From Sphaerisporangium krabiense (GTDB lineage Bacteria > Actinomycetota > Actinomycetes > Streptosporangiales > Streptosporangiaceae), in contig NZ_JACHBR010000001.1 of the NCBI RefSeq assembly GCF_014200435.1, forward strand, positions 2,914,001-2,978,000: a DNA stretch of 64,000 nt, in the 5' to 3' direction. Numbering within the stretch: position 1 is the stretch's first letter; every line of letters begins with the position of its first letter. This document shows positions 11,026 through 28,162 of this stretch, one piece after another. Below the pieces are notes generated by a model. That model had not been told where the DNA came from, made no database searches, and worked only from the letters and a program-made list of their open reading frames with translations. The position numbers and the translations under genes are program-made.

Positions 11026-11230
11026 GGCGAGGCCACGGCGGCGGCCCGCGCGGCCGCACGCTCGAACGCCTCCGGCGCGCCTGACCTGGCCAAGGGCGCG
11101 ACCGGTGGCGCCGGTTCCAACGCCGGCCTTCCCCGCGCGGGCGCGGAACCCGTCCACTTCGCCCGGCAGCCACCATCCGGGGGAAACCGGCGCGCAGGGG
11201 ACGGCCGGCCATTTCCGTGGGGGTGCTCGG

Positions 11231-12388: not shown

Positions 12389-13847
12389 GCGTCCGCCGGG
12401 CCTGGCCGCCCGGCTCAAGGAGATCGAGCTCTTCGCCGAGCTGTCCGACGACCAGCTCGGCTGGCTCGCCACGGTCGGCACGCACCAGGAGCTGGCAGAC
12501 GGGGACGTGCTCTTCCACGAGAACGAACCGGCCGGCCACTTCTACGTCCTGCTCGGCGGCGAGCTGCTGTTCACCAAGGTGTTCGGCGGCCAAGAGCACG
12601 TGCTCACCAAGCACATCGCCGAGTCGACCCCCGAGCCGCTGCTCGTGCAGTACGACGGCAAGCGGCGCGCGGCGCACCAGTTCACCGGCGAGCTTCCGCT
12701 GCTCACCGACAGCGGCTACATCGCCACCGCGATCTCCGCGGGCGGCACCGAGCTGATGGCCTACGACAAGGGGACGTTCCTCGACATGCTCACCCGCTGC
12801 CCGGAGGTGAGCCGGGTGCTGCTGCCCGTGCTCGCCTGGCGCATCCGGACGGTGGAGCTCGAGGCCGGGCGCAACCGGATGCTGGAGGGCCTCGGCACGC
12901 TCGCGGCCGGGCTCGCGCACGAGCTGAACAACCCGACGGCCGCGATGGTGCGGGCCGCCGGCGAGCTGCGCGGCACGGTGGGCGAGCTGACGGAGGCCGC
13001 CATGCGCTGGGGGCGGGTGGCGACGGCCGCGGAGCGGCGGCTGATCACCCGCGTCTGCGAGAGCCTGCACTCCGGCGCCGCGCCCGGGCGGCCCCTGGAC
13101 GTGCTGGAGGCCGCCGAGCTCGCCGACGAGGTGATGGAGTGGCTCTTCGCGCACGACATCGAGCGCTACCAGGACGTCGGCACGGCGCTGGTCGACCGCG
13201 GACTCGGCATCGAGACGCTCGACGAGATCGCCGCCGGCGTGCGCCCGGAGGCGCTGGAGCCCGCGATCGGCTGCCTCGGCCTGATCGTGCAGGCCAGGAC
13301 GATGGTCGAGGACGTCGCCGAGGCCGGGCGCCGCATCGAGGCGCTCGTGGACACCACCAAGGCGTACACCAACCTGGACCGCGCCCCCGTGCGGGACGTG
13401 GACCTGTGGGAGGGCCTGGAGGCGACGCTGGCGATGCTCGCGCCCCGGCTCAGCGGCGTGCGGGTGCGGCGGCACTACGGTGACGTCCCGCTGGTCACGG
13501 CGTATCCGAGCGAGCTGAACCAGGTGTGGACCAACCTCATCGACAACGCGGTGGACGCGATGGAGGGCATCGGCGAGCTGCGGATCGGCACCAAGGTCGA
13601 GGGGCACCACGCGCTGGTGGAGATCAGGGACAGCGGGCCCGGCATCCCGCAGGGCGTGCTGTCGCTGTTGTTCCAGCCGTTCTTCACCACCAAGGACACC
13701 GGCCACGGCACCGGCCTCGGCCTGCACCTGAGCCGGTACATCGTGTCCCACCGGCACGGCGGCACGATCGACGTGACGTCCGTGCCGGGGGACACGCGGT
13801 TCCTCGTGCGGCTACCGCTGACGAGGCGTCAGCTCTCGGCCCGGTAG
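12381..13847 (+). CDS. Sensor histidine kinase with N-terminal cNMP-binding domain
   Basis: 488-residue soluble kinase. Residues about 10-145 form a CRP/cNMP-binding beta barrel (ELSDDQLGWLATVG, DVLFHENEPAGHFYVLLGGEL). The phosphoacceptor His180 is in GLAHELNNPTAA, and the ATPase domain has the N-box NLIDNAVDA, DSGPGIP and GHGTGLGLHLS (from 441). No transmembrane segment is present, so it senses a cytoplasmic ligand. The probable partner is the convergent receiver/thioredoxin-reductase-like gene, whose end overlaps this one by 19 bases; kinases of this type next to such fusions are a recurrent bacterial pair. The start overlaps the transposase-like gene, implying co-translation. Confidence 0.88.
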   Translation: MAERPPGLAARLKEIELFAELSDDQLGWLATVGTHQELADGDVLFHENEPAGHFYVLLGGELLFTKVFGGQEHVLTKHIAESTPEPLLVQYDGKRRAAHQFTGELPLLTDSGYIATAISAGGTELMAYDKGTFLDMLTRCPEVSRVLLPVLAWRIRTVELEAGRNRMLEGLGTLAAGLAHELNNPTAAMVRAAGELRGTVGELTEAAMRWGRVATAAERRLITRVCESLHSGAAPGRPLDVLEAAELADEVMEWLFAHDIERYQDVGTALVDRGLGIETLDEIAAGVRPEALEPAIGCLGLIVQARTMVEDVAEAGRRIEALVDTTKAYTNLDRAPVRDVDLWEGLEATLAMLAPRLSGVRVRRHYGDVPLVTAYPSELNQVWTNLIDNAVDAMEGIGELRIGTKVEGHHALVEIRDSGPGIPQGVLSLLFQPFFTTKDTGHGTGLGLHLSRYIVSHRHGGTIDVTSVPGDTRFLVRLPLTRRQLSAR

Positions 13848-15472
13848 CGGTGGATCATCGCGACGGCCATCGCGCCCTCGCCGACGCTTGAGGCGATGCG
13901 CTTGATGGACTTGGACCGGGCGTCGCCGGCCACGAAGACCCCGGGCATGCTGGTCTCCAGCGGCAGCGGCTCGCGGGGCAGGTCCCAGCCGCCGATCGTC
14001 TTCCTGGGCCCGAGGTCCTGGCCGGTGACCAGGAAGCCGTGCGGGTCGCGGGCCACGGCGCCGTCGAGCCATTCGGTGCGCGGCCGGGCGCCGATGAACG
14101 TGAAGACGTACTCGGCGTCCTCGGTCACCTCCTCACCGGTGTCGAGATTTCGCAGCGTGATGTGTTCGAGCCGGTCGTCGCCGTCCGCGGCGACCAGGAT
14201 CGTGCGCGTCCGCACGTCGATGTTCGGCGCGCGGTTGATCTCGTCGATCAGGTACTGCGACATGCGCGACTCCAGGTTCTCCGCGCGCACGAGCATCGTC
14301 ACGTGCCGGGCGTGCCGGGAGAAGTGCAGCGCCGCCTGGCCGGCGGAGTTGGCCCCGCCGACGATCCAGACGTGCTGCCCGGTGCACAGCGTAGTCTCCG
14401 AGAGGGTGGCGCCGTAGTAGATGCCGGCGCCCTCGAAGCGGGCGGCCCCCTCGGCGTCGAACCTGCTGTAGGACAGCCCGGGGCACAGCAGGACGGTTCC
14501 CGCGCTGATCTCCTTGCCGTCGGCCAGGTCGAGGATCACCGCGCGCCCCGCGCGCCGCAGGCGCACGGCCTCCATGGGCGCGAGCAGGTCCACCCCGAAC
14601 CGGCGGGCCTGCGACACGGCTCTGCTGGTCAGCTCGACGCCGGAGATGCCCGACGGGAACCCCAGGTAGTTCTCGATCCTGCTGGAGGAGCCCGCCTGGC
14701 CGCCGGGGACGTACGCCTCCACGAGCAGCGTGGACAGCCCTTCCGAGGCGGTGTAGACGGCCGCGGCGAGCCCGGCGGGCCCCGCGCCGACGATGGCGAC
14801 GTCGTAGTGCGGGTGCTTCACCTCCATGGCGAGGCCGAGCGCGGTCGCGAGCTGCCCGGTGGCCGGGGCGGCGAGCCGCCTGCCGTCGGGCAGCGTGACC
14901 ACGGGCAGCTCGGCCGCCGGGATGTCCTCGCCGGACTCGGTGGCGTCCTGGAACTTGAAGGGCTGGCGGTGCCGGGTGAGGAAGTCGCGCACGCGATGGG
15001 TGGCGGGCGCGAAGGGCAGGCCGGTGACGGTGATGCCGCCGTAGGGCGGCTCGTAGCTCGACTGCCAGTCGGCCAGCAGCTCGTCGAGCACGGGGTAGAG
15101 CCGTTCCTCGGGAGGGTCCCACGGCTTGATGAGGTAGTGGTCGAGCCGGACCTCGTTGATGGCGGCGATGGCGACGCTGGTGTCGGCGTACGCCGTCAGG
15201 AGCACCCGGCGCGCCGAGGGGAAGCGGTCCGCGGCGGCGGCGAGCAGTTCGATGCCGGTCAGCTCCGGCATGCGCTGGTCGGAGAGGACGAGCGCGGGTT
15301 CCTCGTTGCGGTTGATCAGGGAGTCGAGGATCTGGATCGCCTCGGCGCCCGATCCGGAGGTGAGGACCCGATAGCGGCCCTGGTAGGCCCGGATGAGGTC
15401 ACGACGTATGGCTCTGAGCACGTGGGGGTCGTCGTCCACGGCGAGCACGACCGGGCGGTGCGGCTCAGGCAT
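13829..15472 (-). CDS. Fused response regulator / thioredoxin-reductase-like flavoprotein
   Basis: 547 residues in three parts. A receiver domain (1-125) has the acidic pocket VDDD, phosphoacceptor Asp65 in LSDQRMPE and Lys116 in YLIKPW. A glutaredoxin-like stretch (about 147-215; RDFLTRHRQPFKFQD, ELPVVTLPDG) has no cysteine. A thioredoxin-reductase-like domain has FAD-binding GAGPAG (229-234), the NAD(P)H-binding GGANSAGQAA and GVFVAGDAR at the C-terminus. Where thioredoxin reductases carry CxxC, the sequence reads YGATLSE; only two isolated Cys are visible in the whole protein. So phosphorylation may gate a flavin-based output that is not dithiol reduction. It pairs with the convergent cNMP-type histidine kinase. 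Confidence 0.88.
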   Translation of the reverse strand: MPEPHRPVVLAVDDDPHVLRAIRRDLIRAYQGRYRVLTSGSGAEAIQILDSLINRNEEPALVLSDQRMPELTGIELLAAAADRFPSARRVLLTAYADTSVAIAAINEVRLDHYLIKPWDPPEERLYPVLDELLADWQSSYEPPYGGITVTGLPFAPATHRVRDFLTRHRQPFKFQDATESGEDIPAAELPVVTLPDGRRLAAPATGQLATALGLAMEVKHPHYDVAIVGAGPAGLAAAVYTASEGLSTLLVEAYVPGGQAGSSSRIENYLGFPSGISGVELTSRAVSQARRFGVDLLAPMEAVRLRRAGRAVILDLADGKEISAGTVLLCPGLSYSRFDAEGAARFEGAGIYYGATLSETTLCTGQHVWIVGGANSAGQAALHFSRHARHVTMLVRAENLESRMSQYLIDEINRAPNIDVRTRTILVAADGDDRLEHITLRNLDTGEEVTEDAEYVFTFIGARPRTEWLDGAVARDPHGFLVTGQDLGPRKTIGGWDLPREPLPLETSMPGVFVAGDARSKSIKRIASSVGEGAMAVAMIHRYRAES

Positions 15473-15752
15473 CAGGGCGTCTCCGATCGCTGGAGGCAGA
15501 GTGGGGCTTGGCGTTTCCGCGCGCGCGACGGCGGGCCATGATTGGCCGGGCCACGTCACTTTAACTCGCATTTCGGTGCCCGGGTTCTGGCACATGACGA
15601 AGTACCGGCTGATTCGCGCGCTGACTATGACGACTTGACGAAATAATCCGACTTCAGGAAGTGAGTCCCGCTCGGTCGAGCGGCCTTGTAGTGAAATATG
15701 CAAATTTGTTTGAATCCCGTCGCGGACGATTGTCGATCGACAGGAGCCATCG
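15473..15752. promoter_or_regulatory. Divergent control region of the RR-flavoprotein and the DJ-1/STAS operon
   Basis: 280 bases, locally A+T-richer, between two divergently read units. GACGA recurs at least three times around 15595-15640. AGGAG lies 6 bases before the DJ-1 start. I could not assign a sigma-specific promoter; a GTTT at 15709 has no matching -10. Control of both units from here would link the two-component pair to the operon. Confidence 0.4.
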
Positions 15753-16577
15753 ATGCCGCGCAATATCCTTATCATTCTCTCCGAGTACGGGTACTGGGGA
15801 GAGGAACTCCTGGGGCCGCTGACCACTTTCGATGAACGTGGATATCAGAGCGTCTTCGCCACGCCCACGGGCAAGCGCCCGCGGGCCCTGCCCCCGAGCC
15901 TCGACCCCGGGTACATCGACCCGCCTCTCGGACGGTCGGTCACCACGCCCGAGGTCGCCGTGGCCGCCCGGCTGCTGGACGAGTCCGACCGCCTGGACGC
16001 CCCGCTCAGCCTCGCCGAGTGGATCCCGGACCGGCCGTACTTCAGCGAGCAGAACTTCATCCGCAAGATCGAGGCCTACTACCGGGACATCGCCCGGCTG
16101 GACGAGGACGTCAAGCAGTACGACGCGCTGACCATCGTCGGCGGGAGCGGCCCGATCGCCGACCTGGCGAACAACGGCCGGCTGCACGAGCTGATCCTCG
16201 CCTTCCTGCGGGCCGGCAAGCCCATCCTCGCCGAGTGCTACGGCGTCGCCTGCCTGGCCTTCGCCCGTGACTGGGAGACCCGCCAGAGCATCCTGTGGGG
16301 CAAGCACGTCACCGGCCACTGCAAGGAGTACGACTACAAGGACGGCACCGGCTTCGTCGGCGTGGACTTCAACATGGGCCCGCCGCCGTACCCGCTGGAG
16401 TACATCCTCCGCGACGCCACCGGTCCCGACGGCCGCTACCACGGCAACGTCGGCAAGGAGACCTCGGTCATCGTGGACTACCCGTTCGTCACCGGACGCT
16501 CGACCCCCGACTCGTTCCTGTCGGGCCAGAAGCTCGTCGAGGTCCTGGAGTCCGGCCTGCGGCGCTACGGCTGGTGA
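15753..16577 (+). CDS. DJ-1/PfpI superfamily protein (class I amidotransferase-like)
   Basis: 274-residue protein of the DJ-1/PfpI/Hsp31 fold. The nucleophile elbow is AECYGVACLAF near residue 160, preceded by TIVGGSGPIADL; the N-terminal strand is ILIILSEYGYWGEELL with an acidic residue where DJ-1 proteins have the Glu that tunes the cysteine. Family members are chaperones, glyoxalases, deglycases or amidases protecting against carbonyl and oxidative stress. At 274 residues it is longer than PfpI (about 170) and nearer Hsp31-like proteins with an inserted cap. It is the first gene of the operon, with an AGGAG site. The exact activity is unknown. Confidence 0.85.
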   Translation: MPRNILIILSEYGYWGEELLGPLTTFDERGYQSVFATPTGKRPRALPPSLDPGYIDPPLGRSVTTPEVAVAARLLDESDRLDAPLSLAEWIPDRPYFSEQNFIRKIEAYYRDIARLDEDVKQYDALTIVGGSGPIADLANNGRLHELILAFLRAGKPILAECYGVACLAFARDWETRQSILWGKHVTGHCKEYDYKDGTGFVGVDFNMGPPPYPLEYILRDATGPDGRYHGNVGKETSVIVDYPFVTGRSTPDSFLSGQKLVEVLESGLRRYGW

Positions 16578-16634
16578 TCACCATGACCTTGCCGCGCCGG
16601 TTCTCGTCGACCTCGTGCTGACGTGAGGTGCACC

Positions 16635-19268
16635 ATGAGTGAGAAGCGTTTGGAAGGCTGCACTGTCGCGATACTGATGGAAAGCGACTACGTCGAGCCT
16701 GAGATCAACTACTACCAGCGCAGGTTCGTCGAGGAAGGTGCGCGGGTCGAGTTCCTCACCCGGCTGTGGGGCCAGAAATCGATCACCTTCCACGGCCACG
16801 AGTACCAGAACCCGTTCACCGTGTCCGGCGACCTGGAGGCGGTGGACGACGACAAGCTCGACGCGTACGACATGTTCATCGTGCCGGCCGGCATGGTGTC
16901 CGACCGCCTGCGCTACACCGAGGACGTCCACCAGCTCGCCCCGGCCGTCCAGCTCCTGCGCAGGGCGTTCGAGCGGCCCAAGCTGCTGAAGGGCATCATC
17001 TGCCACGGCCTGTGGCTGGCGGCCCCGATACCCGAGGTCGTGCGGGGACGCCGCGTGACCTGCCACAACAACCTGATCGGCGACGCCCGCAACATGGGCG
17101 CGATCTACACCGACCAGGACGTCGTGGTGGACGGGGACCTGGTCACCGGGCGCAGCTTCAACCAGTGCCACCTGTTCGCCCGCATGATGATCGACCTGGT
17201 CGCCGCCGCCCGCGCGCCCCGCGGGGCGCTGGTCACGGCGGGCGTGGGCACCGCGCCGCTGGCCGCGGGCGCGGCCTCGCGGACGGCGGGCGCGCTCCCG
17301 GCGGGGGAGATCGCCAATGGATCGAACGGATCGAACGGGTCCAACGGGTCCAACGGCGCCGCGACGGTGATCCCCGAGCTGGTCGCCCCCCAGGACAACG
17401 GGCGTCCCGTGCTGGAGCGCGCGGCGCCGGCGCGCCCGCCCGGCTACCACCCCGACTTCACCTTCTCGGACCTGGTCGCCGGCTACATCACCGGCTACGA
17501 CCCGGCCCGCGACACGATCGACCTCAAGACCAACGAGGGCAAGGCCGTCCAGGTGCGTCTCACCTCGACGACCTCGGCCGAGTTCCTGCGCAACCTCGGC
17601 GAGCCGTACATCGACGCCACCGGCCACCTGGACGAGCTGCTCAAGCCCGGCGGGTACCTGTTCGCGTACGGCGTCTACTATCCCGAGCACGGCGCGTACA
17701 CCTTCGAGGCCAAGCGCCTGGTCTTCCTCGGCAGGCAGGCGGGCGACTACAACTTCGAGCGGCCCGACTGGTGGGTGCGCCAGCTCGGCTCGCTCGCCAG
17801 GTTCTACAGGAAGGCGCAGTTCGGCGAGGGCGGCCCGATCGACTACACCGCCTACCGCACTTCGCTGCGTCTCGGGGGAGAGAAGACCCTGAACGCCAAG
17901 GGCGTGCAGGAGACCGACACGATCTCGCGCCTGACCTACGGCATGGCCTCGGCCTACATGCTGACCGGCGACGAGGACTTCCTGGAGGTCGCCGAGCAGG
18001 GCACGCAGTACCTGCGCGACCACATGCGCTTCGTCGACCGCGACGAGGACGTCGTCTACTGGTACCACGGCATCGAGGTGCGCGAGGGCACCGAGCACAA
18101 GCTGTTCACCTCGGAGTTCGGCGACGACTACGACGCGATCCCGATGTACGAGCAGATCTACGCGCTGGCCGGGCCCGTCCAGCTCTACCGGCTGACCGGC
18201 GACCCGCGGATCCTCGCCGACGCCGAGGGCACGCTGCGCCTGTTCCGCAAGTTCTTCCGCGACCCCGAGCAGGGCGGCTGGTACTCCCACGTCGACCCGA
18301 TCCTGCTCAGCCCGCACCACGAGTCGCTCGGCCCGAACCGGTCGAGGAAGAACTGGAACTCGGTGGGCGACCACGCGCCGGCCTACCTGACCAACCTGTA
18401 CCTGGCCACGGGCGACCCCCGGCACGCGGAGATGCTGGAGGAGACGTTCGACCTGATCGTCAAGCACTTCCCGCAGGCCGGCAGCCCGTTCGTGCAGGAG
18501 CGTTTCCACGCCGACTGGTCGGCCGACCGCACGTGGAGCTGGCAGCAGGACCGGGCCGTCGTCGGGCACAACCTGAAGATCGCCTGGAACCTGATGCGGA
18601 TGGCGGCGATCAACCCCAAGGACGGCTACCGGCGGCTCGCCACCGAGATCGGCAGGAAGATGCCGCAGGTCGGCGCCGACCCGCAGCGCGGCGGCTGGTA
18701 CGACGTCGTGGAGCAGCACCTCCAGGAGGGCCAGGAGCTGCACCGGTTCGTCTGGCACGACCGCAAGGCGTGGTGGCAGCAGGAACAGGCGATCCTCGCC
18801 TACCAGATCCTGGCCGGCCACACCGGCGACCCGGAGTTCCGGCGCAGGGCCAGGGAGTCCTCGGCGTTCTACAACGCCTTCTTCCTGGACCACGACGAGG
18901 GCGGCGTCTACTTCAACGTCCTGGCCAACGGCCTGCCGTACCTTCTGGGGAACGAGCGGTCGAAGGGCAGCCACTCGATGAGCATGTACCACGGCGCGGA
19001 GCTGTGCTTCCTCGCCACGGTCTACGAGCGCCTGCTGCTGGACGACGAGCCGCTGACCCTGCACTTCCGCCCCAACCCCGACGGCTTCACCGACCGCGTC
19101 CTGCGGGTCGCGCCAGACGCGCTGCCGCCGGGCCGGGTGCGGCTGGACTGGGTGGAGGTGGACGGCTCCCCGTACCAGGCCTTCGACGCGGCGGCGATGA
19201 CCGTGAAGCTGCCCGACTCGAAGTCGCACCTGCGGGTCCGCGCCCACCTGTCGCCCGTGAGTGACTAG
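16635..19268 (+). CDS. DJ-1/PfpI domain fused to AGE-like (alpha/alpha)6-barrel domain
   Basis: 877-residue multidomain protein. Residues 1-195 are a complete DJ-1/PfpI domain with the Cys-His pair at 123-124 (IICHGLWLAA). A flexible stretch 196-245 includes four NGS units (228-239). Residues about 250-350 look like a small beta domain (GYITGYDPARDTIDLKTN, PGGYLFAYGVYY). From about 360 the protein resembles N-acylglucosamine-2-epimerase-type barrels: repeated helical hairpins with GWYSHVDP, GGWYDVVEQHL and a late SHSMSMYHGAELCF. Epimerase/isomerase action on a sugar is a family inference; catalytic His residues were not aligned. ATG at 16635 has GAGG 6 bases upstream. GlgX three genes on suggests a glucan-derived substrate. 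Confidence 0.8.
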   Translation: MSEKRLEGCTVAILMESDYVEPEINYYQRRFVEEGARVEFLTRLWGQKSITFHGHEYQNPFTVSGDLEAVDDDKLDAYDMFIVPAGMVSDRLRYTEDVHQLAPAVQLLRRAFERPKLLKGIICHGLWLAAPIPEVVRGRRVTCHNNLIGDARNMGAIYTDQDVVVDGDLVTGRSFNQCHLFARMMIDLVAAARAPRGALVTAGVGTAPLAAGAASRTAGALPAGEIANGSNGSNGSNGSNGAATVIPELVAPQDNGRPVLERAAPARPPGYHPDFTFSDLVAGYITGYDPARDTIDLKTNEGKAVQVRLTSTTSAEFLRNLGEPYIDATGHLDELLKPGGYLFAYGVYYPEHGAYTFEAKRLVFLGRQAGDYNFERPDWWVRQLGSLARFYRKAQFGEGGPIDYTAYRTSLRLGGEKTLNAKGVQETDTISRLTYGMASAYMLTGDEDFLEVAEQGTQYLRDHMRFVDRDEDVVYWYHGIEVREGTEHKLFTSEFGDDYDAIPMYEQIYALAGPVQLYRLTGDPRILADAEGTLRLFRKFFRDPEQGGWYSHVDPILLSPHHESLGPNRSRKNWNSVGDHAPAYLTNLYLATGDPRHAEMLEETFDLIVKHFPQAGSPFVQERFHADWSADRTWSWQQDRAVVGHNLKIAWNLMRMAAINPKDGYRRLATEIGRKMPQVGADPQRGGWYDVVEQHLQEGQELHRFVWHDRKAWWQQEQAILAYQILAGHTGDPEFRRRARESSAFYNAFFLDHDEGGVYFNVLANGLPYLLGNERSKGSHSMSMYHGAELCFLATVYERLLLDDEPLTLHFRPNPDGFTDRVLRVAPDALPPGRVRLDWVEVDGSPYQAFDAAAMTVKLPDSKSHLRVRAHLSPVSD
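17316..17351 (+). repeat. Four 9-base repeats encoding the NGS linker
   Basis: Four in-frame units, AATGGATCG, AACGGATCG, AACGGGTCC, AACGGGTCC, followed by AACGGC. They encode a Gly/Ser/Asn linker between the DJ-1 and downstream domains and are prone to copy-number change. Confidence 0.9.
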
Positions 19269-19276
19269 GAGTGGCG

Positions 19277-19612
19277 ATGCAACTCCGCACGGAACTGCGC
19301 GACGACGTCACGATCATCGCGCTCGAAGGATCCCTGGACAGCCGGACGGCGCCCCAGGTGCAGCAGGAGATCGAGGCGCTGTTCCCCGACCACGGGCTGG
19401 TGCTGCTGGACCTCAGCGGCACCAGCTACATGTCCAGCGCCGGGCTGCGCGTGCTGCTGCTCGTGTACCGCAGGGCCCAGGCGGGCACGGCGCGACTGGC
19501 GCTCACCGGGGTCCCGGACGAGGTGCGCGAGATCATGGCGGCCACCGGGTTCCTGGACTTCTTCACCGTCGCCGGGTCGGTGGAGGACGGCGTCAAGGCG
19601 TTGACGGTATGA
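19277..19612 (+). CDS. STAS-domain anti-sigma-factor antagonist (first)
   Basis: 111-residue single-domain STAS protein of the SpoIIAA/RsbV type. The diagnostic stretch is LLDLSGTSYMSSAGLRVLL, with the phosphoacceptor serine in MSSAG; phosphorylation by an RsbW-like kinase blocks, and dephosphorylation restores, its binding to that kinase. Both opposing enzymes are encoded downstream in this operon. The ATG at 19277 was preferred to the GTG at 19271 because AGGAG sits 5 bases before it. The 3' end overlaps glgX by an ATGA junction. Confidence 0.92.
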   Translation: MQLRTELRDDVTIIALEGSLDSRTAPQVQQEIEALFPDHGLVLLDLSGTSYMSSAGLRVLLLVYRRAQAGTARLALTGVPDEVREIMAATGFLDFFTVAGSVEDGVKALTV

Positions 19613-21690
19613 CGGCGCCCCAGGCCATCGAACGAATCGACGCCTACCCGACGCGCAGGATCGCGGGATTCCCGGTGCGCGCCGGCCGGCCGCTGCCGTT
19701 CGGCGCGACGCCGGTGCCCGGCGGCGTCAACTTCTCCGTCTACTCCAACAACGCGACGGGGATGACGCTGGTGCTCTACCGGGCCGGCGAGCCGGAGCCC
19801 ATGGCCGAGCTGCCGTTCCCCGACGCCTTCGTCATCGGGGGCGTCTACGCGATGACGGTGTACGACCTCGACGCGGAGGGCATCGAGTACGGCTACCGCG
19901 CCCAGGGTCCCTTCGACCCCGAGCGCGGCCACCGTTTCGATCCCACGGTCGTGGTCGCGGACCCATACGCCCGGTTGATGAGCGACGCCCGCACGGGGCC
20001 GCGGCGGTCACGGGTGGCCCTGGACGACTTCGACTGGGAGGACGACAGGCCGCTGCGCCTGCCGCACGAGGATCTGGTCATCTACGAGCTCCACGCGCGT
20101 GGCTTCACCCGCGACCCCTCCTCGGGGGTCGCGGCGCCGGGCACGTACGCGGGGCTCGTCGAGAAGATCCCGTACCTGCGGGAGCTCGGCGTCAACTGCG
20201 TCGAGCTCCTGCCGGTCTTCGAGTTCGACGAGAACGACAACCCCCGGTCGCATCCGGTCACCGGCGAGCCGCTGGCGAACTACTGGGGGTACAACACCGT
20301 CGGCTACTTCGCGCCCAAGGCGTCCTACGCCTCGACGGGCCGGTACGGCATGCAGGCCGACGAGTTCAAGAACCTCGTCAAGCAACTGCACCGGGCCGGC
20401 ATCGAGGTCATCCTGGACGTGGTGTTCAACCACACCGCCGAGGGCAACGAGTACGGGCCCACGATCTCGTTCAAGGGCCTGGACAACGCGACGTACTACA
20501 TGCTCACGCCGGACGGGCACTACTACAACTTCAGCGGCACCGGCAACACGCTGAACTGCAACAACCCCGTGGTCCGCGGCTTCGTGCTCGACTGCCTGCG
20601 CTACTGGGCGTCGGAGTTCCACATCGACGGCTTCCGGTTCGACCTGGCCGCGATCCTCGGGCGCGGGCCCGACGGCGCGCTGCTGGCCAACCCGCCGCTG
20701 CTGGAGACGCTGGCCTACGACCCGGTGCTGCGCGACTGCAAGCTGATCGCCGAGGCGTGGGACGCGGCAGGGCTCTACCAGGTGGGCAGCTTCCCGAACT
20801 ACTGCCGCTGGTCGGAGTGGAACGGCCGCTACCGCGACACCGTGCGCCGGTTCGTCAAGGGCGACACCGGCGTGACCGGCGACCTCGCCACCCGCATGGT
20901 CGGCTCGCCCGACATGTACGCCCAGCGGGGGACCTCGGCGACGGTGAACTTCGTGCTGTGCCACGACGGGTTCACGCTCAACGACCTGGTGTCCTACAAC
21001 GGCAAGCACAACGAGGTCAACGGCGAGGACAACAGGGACGGCGACAACAACAACCAGTCGTGGAACTGCGGGGTGGAGGGCCCGACCGACGATCCGGAGG
21101 TCCTGGCCCTGCGCGCCCGCCAGATGCGCAACGTCTTCATGATCCTTCTGGCCAGCCAGGGCGTGCCGATGATCCTCGCCGGGGACGAGGTCGGGCGCAC
21201 CCAGCAGGGCAACAACAACGCCTACTGCCACGACGGGCCGCTGACGTGGTTCGACTGGCGCCTGGTCGAGCGCAACGCCGACCTGCTGCGCTTCGTGCGG
21301 CGCGCGATCGCCTTCCGTCAGGCCCACCCGGTCCTGCGGCGCGGTCCGGCCTCCGAGGTGAGCTGGCACGGCGTGCGGGCCTGGACGGCCGACTGGTCGG
21401 AGCACTGCCGGCTGATCGCCGGCATGTTCGGCACCGGCGCGGACGACTGCGTGTACGTCGCGGCGAACTCCCACTGGGAGGGCCACCTCCTGGAACTGCC
21501 GGAGCCCCCCCAGGGGACCGCCTGGCACCTGTTCGCCGACACCGCGGCGCCGCCGCCGTTCGACGCCCGCGAACCGGGCGAGGAGCCGGTGCTGCCGGAC
21601 CAGTCGCACGTGGAGGTGGGCCCGCGCGCCGTCGTCGTCCTGGTCGCTCACAGCCAGGCGGAGCAACGAGACAACGGGAAGGAGGAGTGA
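19609..21690 (+). CDS. glgX: Glycogen debranching enzyme GlgX (GH13)
   Basis: 693-residue isoamylase-type GH13 enzyme that hydrolyses alpha-1,6 branches of glycogen or limit dextrin. An N-terminal CBM48 (PFGATPVPGGVNFSVYS) precedes the barrel; conserved blocks are ILDVVFNHT, the nucleophile in DGFRFDLA, acid/base Glu in LIAEAWD, and LCHDGFTLND for the third acid. The length matches GlgX/TreX. It sits between two STAS genes with 4-base and 1-base overlaps, so it is co-translated with stress-signalling proteins, an unusual place for a debranching enzyme. No trehalose-synthesis genes (treY/treZ) are nearby, so glycogen mobilisation is the most likely role. Confidence 0.93.
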   Translation: MTAPQAIERIDAYPTRRIAGFPVRAGRPLPFGATPVPGGVNFSVYSNNATGMTLVLYRAGEPEPMAELPFPDAFVIGGVYAMTVYDLDAEGIEYGYRAQGPFDPERGHRFDPTVVVADPYARLMSDARTGPRRSRVALDDFDWEDDRPLRLPHEDLVIYELHARGFTRDPSSGVAAPGTYAGLVEKIPYLRELGVNCVELLPVFEFDENDNPRSHPVTGEPLANYWGYNTVGYFAPKASYASTGRYGMQADEFKNLVKQLHRAGIEVILDVVFNHTAEGNEYGPTISFKGLDNATYYMLTPDGHYYNFSGTGNTLNCNNPVVRGFVLDCLRYWASEFHIDGFRFDLAAILGRGPDGALLANPPLLETLAYDPVLRDCKLIAEAWDAAGLYQVGSFPNYCRWSEWNGRYRDTVRRFVKGDTGVTGDLATRMVGSPDMYAQRGTSATVNFVLCHDGFTLNDLVSYNGKHNEVNGEDNRDGDNNNQSWNCGVEGPTDDPEVLALRARQMRNVFMILLASQGVPMILAGDEVGRTQQGNNNAYCHDGPLTWFDWRLVERNADLLRFVRRAIAFRQAHPVLRRGPASEVSWHGVRAWTADWSEHCRLIAGMFGTGADDCVYVAANSHWEGHLLELPEPPQGTAWHLFADTAAPPPFDAREPGEEPVLPDQSHVEVGPRAVVVLVAHSQAEQRDNGKEE

Positions 21691-22010
21691 TGGCATTCAA
21701 GGCGAAGATGCAGATCGAGGACGGCACCGCGACCATCAGGCTCGAAGGCGAGCTCGACGGCCGCTCGGCCCCCGAGCTCAACGACCTGGTCGTCAAGGCC
21801 GCCGAGCAGCACGTGGACCGGCTCGTGCTGCTGCTGGAGGAGCTGACCTACATGTCGTCGGCCGGCATCCGCTGCCTGGTGTTCGCGCACCAGAAGATGC
21901 CGGAGGACGCCGAGATCATATTGGTGGGCACCCGGCCCGACGTGGCCGAGACCATCAGGCTGACCGGCTTCGACCGCAGCATCGTGATGCGGGAAACCTT
22001 GGAGGCGTGA
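21690..22010 (+). CDS. STAS-domain anti-sigma-factor antagonist (second)
   Basis: 106-residue SpoIIAA/RsbV-like protein. It keeps the serine motif (LTYMSSAGIRCLVF) but lacks the Asp of the usual DLS strand (LLEEL instead), so it may differ in kinase affinity from the first STAS protein. GGAGGAG precedes the ATG, whose A is the last base of the glgX stop. A 1-base overlap also links it to the kinase gene that follows. Two antagonists with one kinase suggests two inputs onto one anti-sigma factor. Confidence 0.92.
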   Translation: MAFKAKMQIEDGTATIRLEGELDGRSAPELNDLVVKAAEQHVDRLVLLLEELTYMSSAGIRCLVFAHQKMPEDAEIILVGTRPDVAETIRLTGFDRSIVMRETLEA

Positions 22011-22477
22011 TGGCGGGATGCCGGCTCAAGGTCGACGGCTCCGGCGCGTCCATCGCCGGACCGGTCGCGGATTTCGTCGGGGCACTGGCCGAGCGGGCCG
22101 GGCTGGGCAGACGCCCGGCCTACTGGCTGCGGCTCGCCGCCGACGAGATCACCACCAACATCGTGCAGCACGGTTACCGGGGGCGCTGCGGTGTGGTGGA
22201 TCTTGAGGGCGGCATCGAGGCGGGCGCGCTGTGGCTGCGCATCGAGGACGACGCGCCCGCCTTCGATCCCCGGAGATACGATCCCGCCCCGCGTCTCGCC
22301 GTCCCGCTGTCCGTGCGCGAGCAGGGCGGATACGGCTTGATGCTCGCGATCGGCAAGGTGGACGAGTTCAGTTACCAGTACGTCGGGGGGCGCAACCGCA
22401 ATACGTTGATCATGCGGCTGACCGGCTCCGGCGAAGCACATGGAGGGGTCGATGCCGAACGCGCTGGTGGTGTTTGA
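22010..22477 (+). CDS. RsbW-like anti-sigma factor / serine kinase (HATPase)
   Basis: 155-residue GHKL ATPase of the RsbW/SpoIIAB type. The N-box is ADEITTNIVQHGY, the G1 box IEDDAPAFDP and the G2 region GGYGLMLA, so ATP binding looks intact. Such proteins bind either a sigma factor or a STAS antagonist and phosphorylate the latter. No sigma-factor gene is in the operon, so the target must be encoded elsewhere or be a non-sigma effector. ATG at 22010 follows GGAGG; its end overlaps the phosphatase gene by 26 bases. Confidence 0.92.
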   Translation: MAGCRLKVDGSGASIAGPVADFVGALAERAGLGRRPAYWLRLAADEITTNIVQHGYRGRCGVVDLEGGIEAGALWLRIEDDAPAFDPRRYDPAPRLAVPLSVREQGGYGLMLAIGKVDEFSYQYVGGRNRNTLIMRLTGSGEAHGGVDAERAGGV

Positions 22478-23714
22478 GACCGAGACGGGCGTGCCGGAGG
22501 TGGTGGCGGAGCTACGCGAGGTGCTCCGCGCCGACGGCTTCGACGTCGCCTACAGCACTCCGGACGATCTGCCGATGCGCCCGGAGCAGTCGCCGCCGGA
22601 CGTCCTTCTGGTGTCCGCCTCGCTCGGCCTGCAACGCGTCGCGCTCGTCGGCCAGCACTTCATGGTCGACGGGCGCACGCCCACCATCATCGCGTTCCCG
22701 GAGGACGACCTGGCCGCGCTGGAGGAGTGCGTGGAGGGCGGGTTCGACTACGTCACCCCGCCCTTCCGCCGCACGCTGCTGCGCAGCCGCATGGAGTCCT
22801 GCCAGGAGAGGTCGGCCCTCAGTACCACCGTGGAGGAGATGGCCGCGCTCGCGAGCCTGCGGGAGTACGAGCGCGACCTGCACATAGCCAGGGAGATCCA
22901 GTCGGGGTTCCTGCCCGAGCACCTGCCCACGCCGGACGGCTGGGAGGTCGGGGCGCGCTTCCGGCCCGCCCGGCAGGTCGCCGGCGACTTCTACGACGTG
23001 TTCACGATCGTCAACGGCCGCAGGCTGGCGTTCGTCGTGGCCGACGTGTGCGACAAGGGCATCGGGGCCGCGCTGTTCATGGCGCTCATCCGGACGCTGC
23101 TGCGGCACACCGCCGAGCACACCGGGGCGTCCCGGCTGATCGAGGACGAGTTCCTGGTGTCGATGGACGGGGAGGGCGTGGGCGGGTCGGCGGCGCCGCT
23201 GCTGTCCCTGGGGGCGGGCCCCCTGGTCCAGGCGATCCTCGGCACCAACCGGTACATGGCGCGCAACCACCTCAAGCAGGGCTACTTCGCGACCATGTTC
23301 TTCGGGGTCCTGGACCCGGTGTCGGGCGTGGTCCTCTACATCAACGGCGGCCACAACCCGCCGGTGGTGGTCCACGCCGACGGCAGGCGCAGCATGCTGC
23401 CGCCCACGGGACCGGCCGTGGGGATCCTCCCCGACAGCTCCTACACCCTGGGGTACGTCCAGCTCGACCAGGGCGACACCCTGTTCGCCTACACCGACGG
23501 CGTCGTGGAGGCCCGGGACACGCGGGGCGGCCTGTACGGCACGCCCAAGCTGCTGGACCTGCTGGACGCCAACAGGGGGCGTGACGTGGAGGGGCTGCTG
23601 GAGGAGGTGGACACCTCGGTGCGGCACTTCGCGAGCCACGCCGAGCAGAGCGACGACATCACCACCCTGGCCCTGCGCCGCGTCCCGCCGGGCGGCATCG
23701 CGGCGGCGAGGTGA
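22452..23714 (+). CDS. SpoIIE/RsbU-type PP2C phosphatase with degenerate receiver domain
   Basis: 420-residue serine phosphatase expected to dephosphorylate the STAS proteins. Residues about 1-115 look like a receiver fold (ALVVFETETGVPEVVAEL), but the strand that should end in the phosphoacceptor Asp reads PDVLLVSASLG, so it is probably a pseudo-receiver. A coiled linker (EEMAALASLREYERDLHIAREIQ) leads to the PP2C domain with metal-binding AGDFYDVF, VADVCDKGIGAALF, YTDGVVEA and the final SDDITTLAL. GGAGGGG precedes the ATG at 22452. It is the last gene before the terminator hairpin. Confidence 0.93.
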   Translation: MPNALVVFETETGVPEVVAELREVLRADGFDVAYSTPDDLPMRPEQSPPDVLLVSASLGLQRVALVGQHFMVDGRTPTIIAFPEDDLAALEECVEGGFDYVTPPFRRTLLRSRMESCQERSALSTTVEEMAALASLREYERDLHIAREIQSGFLPEHLPTPDGWEVGARFRPARQVAGDFYDVFTIVNGRRLAFVVADVCDKGIGAALFMALIRTLLRHTAEHTGASRLIEDEFLVSMDGEGVGGSAAPLLSLGAGPLVQAILGTNRYMARNHLKQGYFATMFFGVLDPVSGVVLYINGGHNPPVVVHADGRRSMLPPTGPAVGILPDSSYTLGYVQLDQGDTLFAYTDGVVEARDTRGGLYGTPKLLDLLDANRGRDVEGLLEEVDTSVRHFASHAEQSDDITTLALRRVPPGGIAAAR

Positions 23715-23736
23715 CCGCGCGATAGGCGCGCATACG

Positions 23737-23778
23737 AAGACCCCGGCGCGGGAGGTTCGCCTCCCGCGCCGGGGTCTT
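23737..23778. terminator. Bidirectional hairpin terminator
   Basis: A perfect 19-bp stem closed by a TTCG tetraloop, between the convergent phosphatase and polyketide-synthase genes. It starts 23 bases past the phosphatase stop and ends 12 bases past the PKS stop. It is the strongest hairpin of the window. Confidence 0.9.
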
Positions 23779-23789
23779 CTGGTGACGGG

Positions 23790-26700
23790 TCAGGTCTGCT
23801 CGGCGGGCACCGCGGTGGCGGTCACCGCCTCGTACAGGTCGCCGGCCAGCAGGCCGATCGGCCGGGCGGCCAGCAGATCGCCGATCCTCACCTCCACCGA
23901 CAGGTCCGCCTTGATCCGCGCGCACAGCTTGGCGGCGAGCACCGAGTCCAGGCCGTGCAGGCTGAGCGACACCTCCGGGTCGAGCTGGTCGGGCGGCAGG
24001 CCGAGGAACTCGGCGAACCGCAGCATCAGGTACTGGCGGAACGCCTCCGGCGAGGAGGTCGCGAGGTCCGCGCCGTCGTAGGCGACCCCGGGCCGCTCGG
24101 GCGCCGCCTCGAACACCGGCTCCGCCACGGGCGCCGGCATCGTGTCCTCCGGCAGGTCGATCCAGAAGCGCTTACGCTGCCACGGGTACAGGGGCAGCGG
24201 GACGAACCGGCCCCCGGCGTGGAGGCGGTCCCAGTCGGGCTCACAGCCCCGCACGTAGGCCGCGGCGAGGGCGTGCAGCATGTGCTCCAGTTCCGGCTCC
24301 CCGCGGTGCAGCGACGGTACGGCCGTCGCGTCCGCGTTCGTGGCCGCGATCTCGTCCTCGATGACCGCGCTGAGCAACGGGTGCGGGCTGATCTCGACGA
24401 ACAGCGTGGGCGCCTCCTCGGCCAGCACGGCGCGGATCGCCGCGGCGAACAGCACCGGGCGCCGCAGGTTCTCCATCCAGTACTCCGCGTCCAGCTCCGC
24501 GCCGTCCACGACCCGGTTGAGCAGCGTGGAGTGCAGGGGCGCCTTCCCCGCCCTGGGGCGCAGCGCGGACAGCGCCTCCAGCAGGGCCGGGCGCACGGGC
24601 TCGACCTGCGGGGCGTGCGAGGCGTAGTCCACCTGCACCTGCCTGCAGAACACGCCCTGCCGGCGCAGCGGCTCGATCACCTCGGCCAGCGCCCCGGGCG
24701 CGCCCGCGAGCACGCACGACCGCGCGCTGTTGACCACGCCCACGCAGACCTCGCCCGCGTGCTCGCCGATCGCCTCACGGGCCTGCCGCTCGTCGAGCTG
24801 CACGACCCACATCGCGCCCGTGCCCGCGAGCCCGTCCAGCAGGGCGCTCCTGCGGCAGACCACCGCCGCCCCCTGGCGCACGGTGAGGGCGCCGGCGACG
24901 GTCGCGGCGGCGATCTCGCCCATGCTGTGGCCGATGAGCAGGTCCGGCGTGATGCCCCAGTCCTGCCAGGCGGCGGCCAGCGAGACCTGGAACGCCCACA
25001 GCGTGGGCTGGATCTCGCCGGTGGCCGTCATCGGCGTGTCGTCCTGCAGCCGCTCGATGACCGACCAGCCCAGCTCGTCGTGGATCGCCCGGTCGCACTC
25101 GCGCATGCGCCGCGCGAACGCCCGGTTCCGGTCCAGCAGCTCCCGGCCCATGCCGGCCCACTGCGCTCCCTGGCCGGGGAAGACGAACACCACCCGGGAC
25201 GGCCCGGACGCGCGCTGCGCCCCGCCCGCCACCGCCTGAGGGAACGCTCCAGAGCCGTACGCCCGCAGGGACGCGGCGACCTTCTCGACGCCCCCCACGA
25301 CGGCGAGCCGGTGCTCATGGTGGCTCCTGCGCCGGCCCGCGCTGTAGCAGACGTCGCGCAGGTCGGTGCCCGGGGTGTTCAGGGCCTCGGCGTAGCGCTG
25401 GGCCAGCCGCCGCAGCGCCCGGCCGTCCCTGGCCGACAGCGGCAGCAGGAACGGCCCGGCGGCCGGCCTGCGCCTCGGCGTCTCGGCGGCGGCGGGCGCC
25501 TCCGCGAGGACGACGTGCGCGTTCGTCGCGGACAGCCCGAACGAGCTGACGCCGGCCATCGCGGGCCCCGGTTCGTCCGGCCAGGGCTGGGTGTGCATGA
25601 CCGGCCGCAGCGGCGCGCCGGGCTCGTCGAACAGCGGATGCGGTTGTTTCACGTGGAGCGTCGCGGGAATGGTCTTGTGCTTGAGCGTCAGCGCCGCCTT
25701 CACCAGGCCGACCAGTCCCGCCGCGCCCTCGCCGTGGCCGATGTTGGACTTCGCCGACCCCACCAGGCAGGGCCGCCCCGGCTCCCGGCCCTCGCCCATG
25801 ACACGGCTCAGCGCGACCAGCTCGGTGTAGTCGCCCCGCGGCGTCCCCGGGCCGTGCGCCTCGACATAGGCCACCTGCCCCGGTGACACGCCCGCGTCCT
25901 CGTAGGCGTCCCGCAGCATGGCCTCCTGGCCGTCCACGCCCGCGGCGATCAGCGTGCCCGAGCCCCGGCCGTTGCTGTTGACCGCCGTCCCGATGATCGT
26001 GGCGTAGATCCGGTCGCCGTCGGCCAGCGCCCGGGACAGCGGCTTGAGTATGACGCTGACCGCGGCCTCGCTGCGCACGTACCCGTCCGCGCCGGCGTCG
26101 CCGAACTTGCTGCGGCCGGAGGGGGAGAGCACGCCCGCGTCGGCGAGGCTGAGGTACAGGTCAGGGGCCAGCAGCAGGTTCACGCCCGCCACGACGGCCA
26201 GCGTGCTCTGCCCGGTCCACAGCTCCCTGCACGCCAGGTGGACGCCGAGCAGCGAGGTCGAGCAGGTGGCCTCCAGGCCCATGCTGGGGCCGCGCAGGTC
26301 GAAGAGGTAGGAGATGCGGCCCGCGAGCGTGCCCCAGTTGCCGGCGCCCACCGCGGCGTGCATGTCGTACAGCCCGGCCCTGCGGAGGATGTCCCAGTAG
26401 TCGGACGGCAGGCAGCTCGTGTAGACGGCGGTCCTGCTTCCCGCCAGCCGGGACAGCGGGATCCCCGCGTCCTCGACGGCCTCGGCGGTGACCTCGATCA
26501 GGAGGCGGTGCTGCGGGTCGATGCGCAGCGCCTCGTGCGGGGAGATGGAGAAGAAGGAGGCGTCGAACTGGTCGACGTCCTCCAGGAAACCGCCGGCACG
26601 TGCGGCGACGCGGTTCCACCACTCTCCGGTGGCCTGGTCCAGGCCACCGGAGGGGAACCGGTCGGTGGGGATCTCCCCCACGGTGCAGCACTCGCCGGCC

Positions 26701-26798
26701 AGGACGTCCCAGAACGCGGACACGCTCGGGGCGCCCGGCAGCCGGCACGCGGCGCCGATGATGGCGATGGGATCTCGGGGACTGGTGGTGCGATTCAT
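23790..26798 (-). CDS. Single-module type I polyketide synthase (KS-AT-ACP)
   Basis: 1002 residues. KS about 8-435 with active Cys179 (EATCSTS), His315 (EAHGPGTPRGD) and His355 (SNIGHGEGAAG); AT about 538-830 with Ser625 (GHSMGE) and YASH at 725-728, the signature usually read as methylmalonyl-CoA-specific; then YPWQRKRFW and an ACP with the phosphopantetheine Ser952 (LHGLDSVLAAKL). No KR, DH, ER or thioesterase is present. Stand-alone modules of this kind can act iteratively or hand a beta-keto chain to another enzyme. KS deviations (Pro317 for Thr, TCSTS for ACSSS) are mild. Its ATG overlaps the upstream ATPase stop (ATGA). Confidence 0.93.
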   Translation of the reverse strand: MNRTTSPRDPIAIIGAACRLPGAPSVSAFWDVLAGECCTVGEIPTDRFPSGGLDQATGEWWNRVAARAGGFLEDVDQFDASFFSISPHEALRIDPQHRLLIEVTAEAVEDAGIPLSRLAGSRTAVYTSCLPSDYWDILRRAGLYDMHAAVGAGNWGTLAGRISYLFDLRGPSMGLEATCSTSLLGVHLACRELWTGQSTLAVVAGVNLLLAPDLYLSLADAGVLSPSGRSKFGDAGADGYVRSEAAVSVILKPLSRALADGDRIYATIIGTAVNSNGRGSGTLIAAGVDGQEAMLRDAYEDAGVSPGQVAYVEAHGPGTPRGDYTELVALSRVMGEGREPGRPCLVGSAKSNIGHGEGAAGLVGLVKAALTLKHKTIPATLHVKQPHPLFDEPGAPLRPVMHTQPWPDEPGPAMAGVSSFGLSATNAHVVLAEAPAAAETPRRRPAAGPFLLPLSARDGRALRRLAQRYAEALNTPGTDLRDVCYSAGRRRSHHEHRLAVVGGVEKVAASLRAYGSGAFPQAVAGGAQRASGPSRVVFVFPGQGAQWAGMGRELLDRNRAFARRMRECDRAIHDELGWSVIERLQDDTPMTATGEIQPTLWAFQVSLAAAWQDWGITPDLLIGHSMGEIAAATVAGALTVRQGAAVVCRRSALLDGLAGTGAMWVVQLDERQAREAIGEHAGEVCVGVVNSARSCVLAGAPGALAEVIEPLRRQGVFCRQVQVDYASHAPQVEPVRPALLEALSALRPRAGKAPLHSTLLNRVVDGAELDAEYWMENLRRPVLFAAAIRAVLAEEAPTLFVEISPHPLLSAVIEDEIAATNADATAVPSLHRGEPELEHMLHALAAAYVRGCEPDWDRLHAGGRFVPLPLYPWQRKRFWIDLPEDTMPAPVAEPVFEAAPERPGVAYDGADLATSSPEAFRQYLMLRFAEFLGLPPDQLDPEVSLSLHGLDSVLAAKLCARIKADLSVEVRIGDLLAARPIGLLAGDLYEAVTATAVPAEQT

Positions 26799-28162
26799 GC
26801 GGCCTCCACTCCGCCTGTGACGTTCGCTCTCCCGTTGCCGGTGAGCATCGAGATCGCGACAGCGACGTCCCACCCCGAGCTCTGCTCGCCGCCGTGGAAG
26901 TCGCTCGCCAGGAAAGTCGCCTCGCCGGACCTGCCGGCCAGGAGCAGCGCGTCGATGAGACACGCCGTTATGTAGGGCGCCAGCCATGGGGGGCCGGCGT
27001 CGGCCCCGCCGGTGCCGAGCGCCAGCGCCCGTCGTAGGTGGAAGACGGCCTGCTGCGGGTCGGCGCCGGTGGGCGCCGTCGCCCGCGCGGCGTGCACGAA
27101 CATGGCCGTCTCCCGGTCGTCGCGGTCGAGGCTCCCGATCCCCTCGGAACCGTCAGACCCGCGGCCGGTGAGTGCCTGGATCCAGGAACGGTAGGCGAGG
27201 TAGCGCCCTCCGGGCCGGGGGCCGCGCAGCAGGGCGGCCTTGAGCAGGAACTCCTCGGCCGCCGCGGGCTCGCCCAGGCCGAACGCCAGGGCCATCGCCT
27301 TCGCCAGCGCGAGGTGCGGCGTCGTCTCGACCGTGCCGGTCGGCAGCGAGTCCAGGAAGACGAGGGCGTCCTCCGCCCTGCCGTGCAGCAGCAGCAGGTG
27401 GGCGAGCACGGGGGCGACCATCTCCCCGGCGCCGCACCACACGGCCGCCTTGCACAGTTCGTGGGCCCGTTCGAGCGACAGCTCGTACCAGGCCCGCGTC
27501 GCCGCCTTGGAGAGCAGGGCGAGCGACCCGCGCGTCCCCCCGCCGATCCAGGTGCTCACCTCCCGGAACTCCCACAGGTTGTTGCGGCGCACGAAATGGA
27601 GTCCGAGGTCGCAGGCGCCGATCAGCTCATGGAGCAGCGCCGGATTCCCCCCGGAGGCGGCGTGCAGGGCCTCGGCCGTGGCATGGCGCACATGCCCCCC
27701 GATGACGTCGGCCAGCAGCGTCGTCACCTCGTCCAGGCTCAGCGGCGGAACGTGCACGTTGCGCCGGTGCGGCTCGAACCGCAGGCTGTCCGCCGGGTCC
27801 GGCTGCGGGACCGTGCCCGCGGGCGCGGTCGTGACCAGGAGCGTTCCGGCCCCGCGCCGGCAGAGGTCGCGGAGCGTCAGCAATGTGGCGTGGTCGCTGA
27901 GGTGCGCGTCGTCGACCACCAGGAGCAGACGGCGTCCGTTCGTCTCCGGGATCCGGGCCGCGACCCCCGTCGGGCCCCCCGGCGCCTCGAAGCGGACGAT
28001 CTCGTAGCCCTCGGCCTCCGCGGACGCCAGCGCCCTTTCGAGGAGCGCGGTGCGCCCCATGCCTCTTTCCCCCTCGATGATGATCGGACCCGGCACCCGG
28101 GCCCCCAGTGACGCGCGGATGCTTTCCAGCTGTCGATTCCGGCCCACGAAATTCCACTGCAT
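26795..28162 (-). CDS. STAND/LAL-like ATPase without DNA-binding domain
   Basis: 455-residue ATPase resembling the N-terminal two thirds of LuxR-type (LAL) regulators. Walker A is GERGMGRT (31-38), with Arg where Lys is normal; Walker B is LLLVVDDAH; the rest is helical repeats up to about 440. LAL proteins end in a LuxR helix-turn-helix, absent here, so it is either a truncated regulator that acts through a partner or a chaperone-like ATPase. AAGGGGG precedes the ATG. The overlap with the PKS gene makes it a dedicated partner of the synthase. ATP hydrolysis may be weak. Confidence 0.75.
   Translation of the reverse strand: MQWNFVGRNRQLESIRASLGARVPGPIIIEGERGMGRTALLERALASAEAEGYEIVRFEAPGGPTGVAARIPETNGRRLLLVVDDAHLSDHATLLTLRDLCRRGAGTLLVTTAPAGTVPQPDPADSLRFEPHRRNVHVPPLSLDEVTTLLADVIGGHVRHATAEALHAASGGNPALLHELIGACDLGLHFVRRNNLWEFREVSTWIGGGTRGSLALLSKAATRAWYELSLERAHELCKAAVWCGAGEMVAPVLAHLLLLHGRAEDALVFLDSLPTGTVETTPHLALAKAMALAFGLGEPAAAEEFLLKAALLRGPRPGGRYLAYRSWIQALTGRGSDGSEGIGSLDRDDRETAMFVHAARATAPTGADPQQAVFHLRRALALGTGGADAGPPWLAPYITACLIDALLLAGRSGEATFLASDFHGGEQSSGWDVAVAISMLTGNGRANVTGGVEAA

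Follow-up and report, generated by a model that had tools for sequence, protein, structure and literature searches.

An actinobacterial icfG-type operon in Sphaerisporangium krabiense and a candidate enzyme target for its partner switch

The icfG operon of the cyanobacterium Synechocystis sp. PCC 6803, known since the 1990s, joins carbohydrate enzymes to the parts of a partner switch. According to the published descriptions, it encodes the AGE protein Slr1855, the STAS protein Slr1856, the GlgX/isoamylase Slr1857, a second STAS protein (Slr1859), the PP2C phosphatase IcfG (Slr1860) and the RsbW-type kinase Slr1861, and it has been linked to carbon and glucose metabolism, its mutants having carbon and glucose phenotypes (PMC12329169, PMC8670252). 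The operon is given as slr1852-1862, with Slr1855 as an AGE protein and slr1857 listed as GlgX2 (PMC8670252). Slr1861 phosphorylates both Slr1856 and Slr1859, whereas IcfG dephosphorylates Slr1856 and not Slr1859, and which sigma factors the two STAS proteins act on was still called unknown in 2025 (PMC12329169). Here, we analyse a stretch of 64,000 nucleotides from the actinomycete Sphaerisporangium krabiense (contig NZ_JACHBR010000001.1, positions 2,914,001 to 2,978,000; “the window”), in which a seven-gene operon at 15753-23714 is, at the level of family identity, almost certainly the actinobacterial version of the icfG operon.

Coordinates and gaps are based on the open reading frame calls and the sequence of the window. 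Seven genes follow each other on the plus strand. They encode a DJ-1/ThiJ-like protein (DJ1, 15753-16577; Pfam ThiJ_like/DJ-1_PfpI), a protein that joins a PfpI-type DJ-1 domain (about residues 1-200) to an AGE-family barrel (16635-19268; Pfam DJ-1_PfpI and GlcNAc_2-epim), STAS1 in the position of Slr1856 (19277-19612; Pfam STAS), the isoamylase-1-like debranching enzyme GlgX (19609-21690; Pfam CBM48 and alpha-amylase, scoring above the cut-off of NCBIfam TIGR02100), STAS2 in the position of Slr1859 (21690-22010; Pfam STAS), an RsbW/SpoIIAB-type serine kinase with an intact N box (DEITTN; 22010-22477; Pfam HATPase_c_2) and a SpoIIE/IcfG-type PP2C phosphatase with an N-terminal pseudo-receiver (22452-23714; Pfam SpoIIE; an alternative in-frame ATG lies at 22440). 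Both STAS proteins carry an SSAG phosphorylation motif. Pfam and NCBIfam back all seven gene labels of the first-pass annotation of this DNA, and its gaps of 57, 8, -4, -1, -1 and -26 bases were reproduced from the reading frames and the sequence. Such tight spacing and common direction would suit a regulator that controls only the transcription of its own operon, with neither an enzyme contact nor any other target. However, none of the seven proteins contains a DNA-binding domain according to Pfam, so that a sigma factor or an enzyme contact would still be needed, and we regard this explanation as improbable.

The order AGE-STAS-GlgX/isoamylase-STAS on one strand, with kinase and PP2C genes just downstream, matches the composition of the icfG operon. 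Likeness to Synechocystis was judged by published gene descriptions, and the sequences compared came from other cyanobacteria. The first-pass annotation had not been aware of any described system made up in this way; because the icfG operon is, that claim was wrong, and treating the system as undescribed is ruled out. Instead, the operon is real, well conserved and of a known kind. Profiles for STAS1 and STAS2 divide the 183 stand-alone proteins that score at least 60 bits into 93 and 90, each by more than 20 bits, and a STAS tree (95 thinned rows, 111 columns, many forks unresolved) places STAS1 on one side of a branch with an SH-aLRT support of 100. On sequence grounds, STAS1 and STAS2 are separate ancient groups and positional orthologues across phyla, and both STAS proteins of the window are positional orthologues of the cyanobacterial ones that keep the phosphorylatable serine.

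The switch parts retain their residues for phosphorylation and catalysis in the alignments, in which only rows above the score cut-offs of our script were counted for catalytic residues. Of the STAS1 rows, 93 of 95 have the second serine of the [SA]SAG motif (the exceptions being a glutamine in the STAS1 beside AGE at locus L041 and one protein cut by a contig end), as do all 91 STAS2 rows; it lies two residues ahead of the glycine, like Ser59 of Ssr1600, a target of Slr1861 (residue numbers as we interpret them). The N box glutamate and asparagine of the kinase are present in 88 of 88 rows. For the phosphatase, 30 actinobacterial rows were chosen from 71 scoring above 250 bits, and the receiver aspartate is missing in all 30 (DVLLVSA region, read by eye), so that the N-terminal domain is classed as a pseudo-receiver. 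The predicted phosphatase model matches RssB (receiver and PP2C) with a TM score of only 0.45-0.50 by query length and an rmsd near 15, indicating that the domains are placed differently. The phosphatase of cyanobacterium L099 carries a GAF domain where the window has the pseudo-receiver; phyla thus share the core but not the sensor.

To place the operon among its relatives, we relied on an AGE profile scan of 84,980 species genomes, which confirmed at least 549 relatives; the named loci (numbers prefixed with L) are the best 80 and, having been kept for their scores, form an uneven sample. The seven-gene order is present in all eight relatives fetched and is therefore not, as the first-pass annotation had allowed for, found only in this strain. 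DJ1 is the most loosely linked member, with 1.6 to 4.7 kb of other DNA between it and the second DJ-1 gene in six of the eight. The best 80 of at least 549 loci, drawn from three phyla, comprise 77 with AGE-STAS, 75 with AGE-STAS-GlgX, 69 with AGE-STAS-GlgX-STAS and 67 that have the kinase and phosphatase as well, while two are fusions of AGE to STAS (AGE=STAS). Restricting the count to the 76 named loci with at least 7 kb downstream gives 73, 72, 68 and 66, respectively, and again two fusions. At L089 (14653-16335), kinase and phosphatase profiles match a single frame, an apparent RsbW-PP2C fusion.

Even draws of genomes, each including the centre genome that was itself chosen for having AGE, found AGE in 21 of the 194 genomes drawn from the cyanobacterial class, 5 of 201 Chloroflexota and 2 of 396 Actinomycetota. 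In the window's genus, 7 of 11 genomes have AGE (own genome included in the last two counts). AGE-STAS-GlgX occurs in 16 of the 21 AGE-bearing cyanobacterial genomes, 15 of them with the second STAS gene and 11 with kinase and phosphatase (kinase first in eight, phosphatase first in three). The five AGE-bearing Chloroflexota comprise four AGE=STAS fusions and one full cluster (L105, with STAS1 doubled). This patchy occurrence in the genus and in Actinomycetota, together with a transposase gene adjoining the block, might indicate unrelated neighbours assembled by chance or recent transfer. Yet the order is kept in three phyla, across which AGE is about 60% identical, and the two other glgX genes of the S. 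krabiense genome, used as a control, have no partner genes within their 20-kb stretches, which argues that the grouping is not due to chance. Conservation of the gene order thus already refutes this explanation, to which we assign next to no probability. The same genome contains 20 STAS matches.

Sigma partner-switching operons such as RsbVW-SigB and SpoIIAA-AB-SigF have their sigma gene in or beside the operon; no sigma-70-like gene lies in or next to the operon studied here. A sigma model built from six sigma genes of the own genome found both positive controls but, across 113 stretches (at least eight of them repeats of a place already counted), not a single sigma-70-like frame, although ECF sigmas would be missed by it. 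This agrees with the earlier observation of a switch lacking a nearby sigma gene. The first-pass annotation had further proposed that the switch controls, or is controlled by, glycogen mobilisation and carbonyl/oxidative protection. The conserved unit, the intact switch residues and the lack of a sigma-70-like gene nearby make a link to carbohydrate metabolism reasonable; carbonyl/oxidative protection, for which the DJ-1 family label is the sole basis, is not supported.

A sister arrangement, DJ1b-GlgX'-AGE=STAS, occurs in Chloroflexota and some cyanobacteria, where a STAS domain is joined to the C terminus of AGE (L104 3571-5793, L107 9977-12157, L167, L171, L172, L177, L178 and L179). GlgX' adjoins the fusion wherever the stretch reaches far enough and is 43-50% identical to the main GlgX group and 61-70% among the five compared. 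The fused STAS scores as STAS2 in nine of nine rows and keeps the phospho-serine in one of them (eight rows are distinct, L104 and L176 being one place), the serine being replaced by differing letters (K, G, D, T). The only fusion to retain it, L107, belongs to a genome that also carries a full cluster with a kinase (L180). Near the fusions no kinase or phosphatase match was found, in stretches that are partly short (7.7 kb for L179, 11.7 kb for L177) and with kinases elsewhere unsought. In a quick-method AGE tree (63 thinned rows, without L173-L175), all fused AGE proteins group in a single clade (support 98) spanning Cyanobacteriota and Chloroflexota, so that the serine losses are not independent events. 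That a neighbouring STAS1 was joined through stop loss was considered and rejected, profile scores and tree placing the fused domain with STAS2. Two further loci lack STAS1: L096 (9314-14613) retains DJ=AGE, STAS2, the kinase and the phosphatase one after another, and L111 (9371-12556), which also lacks GlgX, is reduced to DJ=AGE-STAS2-kinase-phosphatase. Both sets are what a core of AGE and STAS2 would lead one to expect.

Taken as a whole, the operon is best, and probably correctly, explained as an icfG-type carbon switch. By family, intact residues and published Synechocystis biochemistry, the kinase would phosphorylate STAS1 and STAS2 on the second serine of SSAG, and the phosphatase would strip the phosphate from at least one of them when a signal reaches the pseudo-receiver. 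Unphosphorylated STAS2 would dock on the AGE-type sugar epimerase, perhaps together with GlgX, and tune the epimerase; we consider this the likeliest output, though just short of an even call. More weakly, we infer that STAS1, where present, would be a phosphatase-controlled decoy that keeps the kinase off STAS2, a step that L096 and L111 render optional. The operon would in this way set the handling of glycogen-derived sugars upon a change in carbon supply. The complete proposal, an enzyme-directed switch in three phyla in which STAS2 is a removable AGE subunit gated by serine phosphorylation and STAS1 a dispensable decoy, is put forward tentatively, the balance leaning somewhat against its holding in every part.

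The main rival to STAS2 docking on AGE is a sigma target encoded elsewhere: the kinase would act as an anti-sigma factor, and GlgX, AGE and DJ-1 would merely be co-transcribed, possibly as members of the regulon. Slr1861 of the icfG operon is an anti-sigma factor that binds SigC and, with Ssr1600, controls formation of the RNA polymerase-SigC complex (PMC12329169). No other point counts as heavily against a purely enzymatic output as this role of Slr1861, in which Ssr1600 is a third STAS protein. The own genome also has two SigB/F/G-type sigma genes above cut-off elsewhere; however, one of the two has a STAS match beside it (L185). The sigma scan of the 113 stretches, blind to ECF sigmas, likewise speaks against the rival, which moreover predicts neither that enzyme genes should sit between the two STAS genes across three phyla nor that AGE and STAS should be fused. 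We therefore hold a sigma target elsewhere to be a serious but on balance doubtful alternative; sigma and enzyme outputs of the switch may coexist.

Several further observations weigh against an enzyme-directed switch built on a conserved set. Eight non-fusion loci of the 76 lack the full set on our test (L041, L083, L096, L100 and L108-L111): the STAS2-kinase-phosphatase set of L108 and L110 lies on the opposite strand 8-9 kb off, the phosphatase gene of L083 is upstream, L100 and L109 have no further cluster part past GlgX, and L041 (Actinoplanes sp. RD1, 11842-21228) has a second STAS1-STAS2-RsbW-PP2C set nearby on the opposite strand. The 21 cyanobacterial genomes include three AGE=STAS fusions and two loci (L174, L175) that represent a third arrangement, a divergent AGE accompanied by two DJ-1 genes but by neither a STAS nor a GlgX match. 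Five more lack the full set on our test: L160 and L169 have no phosphatase match, L173 has neither kinase nor phosphatase matches, the kinase of L164 is on the other strand, and glgX of L168 is split into two frames. The loci without STAS1 (L096, L111) imply that the decoy cannot be a universal requirement. Because AGE=STAS has a single origin, its rows do not count as independent cases; the AGE and GlgX' proteins of the fusion loci differ from those of the window, and the fusion can reflect mere co-regulation.

The STAS2-AGE fusion is the most valuable new point, as a natural fusion from which the phospho-serine is mostly gone offers a concrete target, STAS2 on AGE. In addition, the presence of icfG-type operons in actinomycetes and Chloroflexota, with GlgX between the STAS genes in the majority of loci analysed, provides further hosts for testing. 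The actinomycete hosts are non-photosynthetic, and the glycogen link could therefore be separated from inorganic-carbon sensing.

In the enzymes of the operon, the DJ1 cysteine (ECYG) is kept in 68 of 68 rows, the DJ1b Cys-His pair in 98 of 98, and the GlgX aspartate and glutamate in 101 of 101. Fusion of DJ-1 to AGE is confined to one actinobacterial clade of the tree (three of the eight relatives and 10 of the best 80 loci) and was accordingly rejected as a defining feature. The AGE part, an (alpha/alpha) barrel flanked by additional beta domains at both termini, has the fold of the AGE/cellobiose/glucose 2-epimerase superfamily in a predicted model (pTM 0.90), the best match being glucose 2-epimerase 8h1l (TM 0.76 by target length, 0.54 by query length). 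Within the epimerase GHxxE motif, whose glutamate we take to be catalytic, AGE keeps the histidine but has an invariant lysine for the glutamate (GHNLK) in 37 of 37 aligned rows, whereas glucose 2-epimerase 8h1k has glutamate there (GHNSE); judged from this substitution, the chemistry is possibly different. The closest solved structure to the window GlgX is plant isoamylase 1. The window GlgX is 42% identical to the two other GlgX proteins of the genome (L113, L114), one of which is nearest to 7u39 and the second 72% identical to the first. By eye, neither of these two has the RETD motif for cyclic di-GMP (c-di-GMP), and in the window GlgX the arginine of the motif is replaced by proline; c-di-GMP control of the window enzyme through the known RxxD motif was rejected on this comparison.

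Upstream of the operon and divergent from it lies, outside the core, a gene whose product joins a response regulator to a TrxR-like flavoprotein that has no CxxC (13829-15472, minus strand). It converges with a gene for a histidine kinase with a CRP-like domain and the H box AHELNNP (12381-13847, plus strand), which is likely its partner; the two would make up a two-component pair whose output is apparently enzymatic. The flavoprotein is matched in 34 of the best 80 loci (upstream in 32 of the 34) and the histidine kinase in eight; the flavoprotein also adjoins the AGE=STAS locus of cyanobacterium L107, and the thioredoxin reductase CxxC is found in none of 36 aligned flavoproteins. The pair may belong to the same physiology as the operon. 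A DDE transposase gene (11105-12388) adjoins the histidine kinase gene. Between the DJ-1 genes, several actinobacteria carry genes for a TPP enzyme, SnoaL-like proteins and a GMC oxidoreductase (L033 4946-8994 and L053 6031-9376, by Pfam; L042 4859-8967, by N termini only), and L053 has an EthD protein gene upstream. A ParA/MinD-like ATPase gene follows the cluster in L053 (16536-17312, Pfam), and ATPase-like genes were recognised by N terminus only in L042 (16308-17087), L066 (16390-17139) and, on the other strand, the cyanobacterial L091 (1881-2660).

The strong hairpin noted earlier at the operon end is present at 23736-23779 (strand not assigned), starting 21 nt past the final stop, with a 20-bp stem and a UUCG loop; for the 84-nt region, the folding energy is -62.5 kcal/mol (z -7.6). 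A KS-AT-ACP polyketide synthase gene (23790-26987) converges on the operon end. Since the hairpin has no U tail and sits between the converging genes, it may serve both as a bidirectional terminator. It was absent from the output of the terminator pattern scan, and the promoter scan returned no promoters and two terminator-like sites, which is chance level.

Among known systems, the sigma switches RsbVWU and SpoIIAA-AB-E share the STAS, kinase and PP2C chemistry with the window operon, which differs in having no adjacent sigma gene and in alternating its two STAS groups with genes of carbohydrate metabolism. Published partner switches with an enzyme as their target are SiaC-SiaD, HsbA-HsbD and BgrV-BgrR (PMC8457831). 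As in our proposal, phosphorylation of a STAS or STAS-like protein controls an enzyme in SiaABCD, HsbA/HsbD and BgrV/BgrR; there, however, the enzyme is a diguanylate cyclase, whereas the window has an epimerase-like protein and GlgX as putative contacts (PMC8457831). Streptomyces venezuelae GlgX Vnz29170, reported to be activated by c-di-GMP, is likewise an actinobacterial GlgX under regulatory control (PMC9530166), but among solved structures the window enzyme comes closest to plant isoamylase 1, and it lacks the RETD arginine. The closest system is the icfG operon, described with AGE, STAS, GlgX/isoamylase, STAS, PP2C and an RsbW-type kinase in a single operon; its locus numbers give the same AGE-STAS-GlgX-STAS order as the window, and the descriptions of the locus name no sigma gene (PMC12329169, PMC8670252). 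Synechocystis slr1853 is annotated as a carboxymuconolactone decarboxylase (PMC3564720), of which Pfam finds none in the nine window genes scanned. Word searches of the open-licence literature found no description of an actinobacterial icfG-type operon. In contrast to icfG, the window operon fuses DJ-1 with AGE, puts the kinase before the phosphatase, and is adjoined by an extra DJ-1 gene and the histidine kinase/response-regulator flavoprotein pair. The actinobacterial form, with its DJ-AGE fusion, pseudo-receiver phosphatase and adjoining histidine kinase and response-regulator flavoprotein, is apparently a new form that the icfG operon takes.

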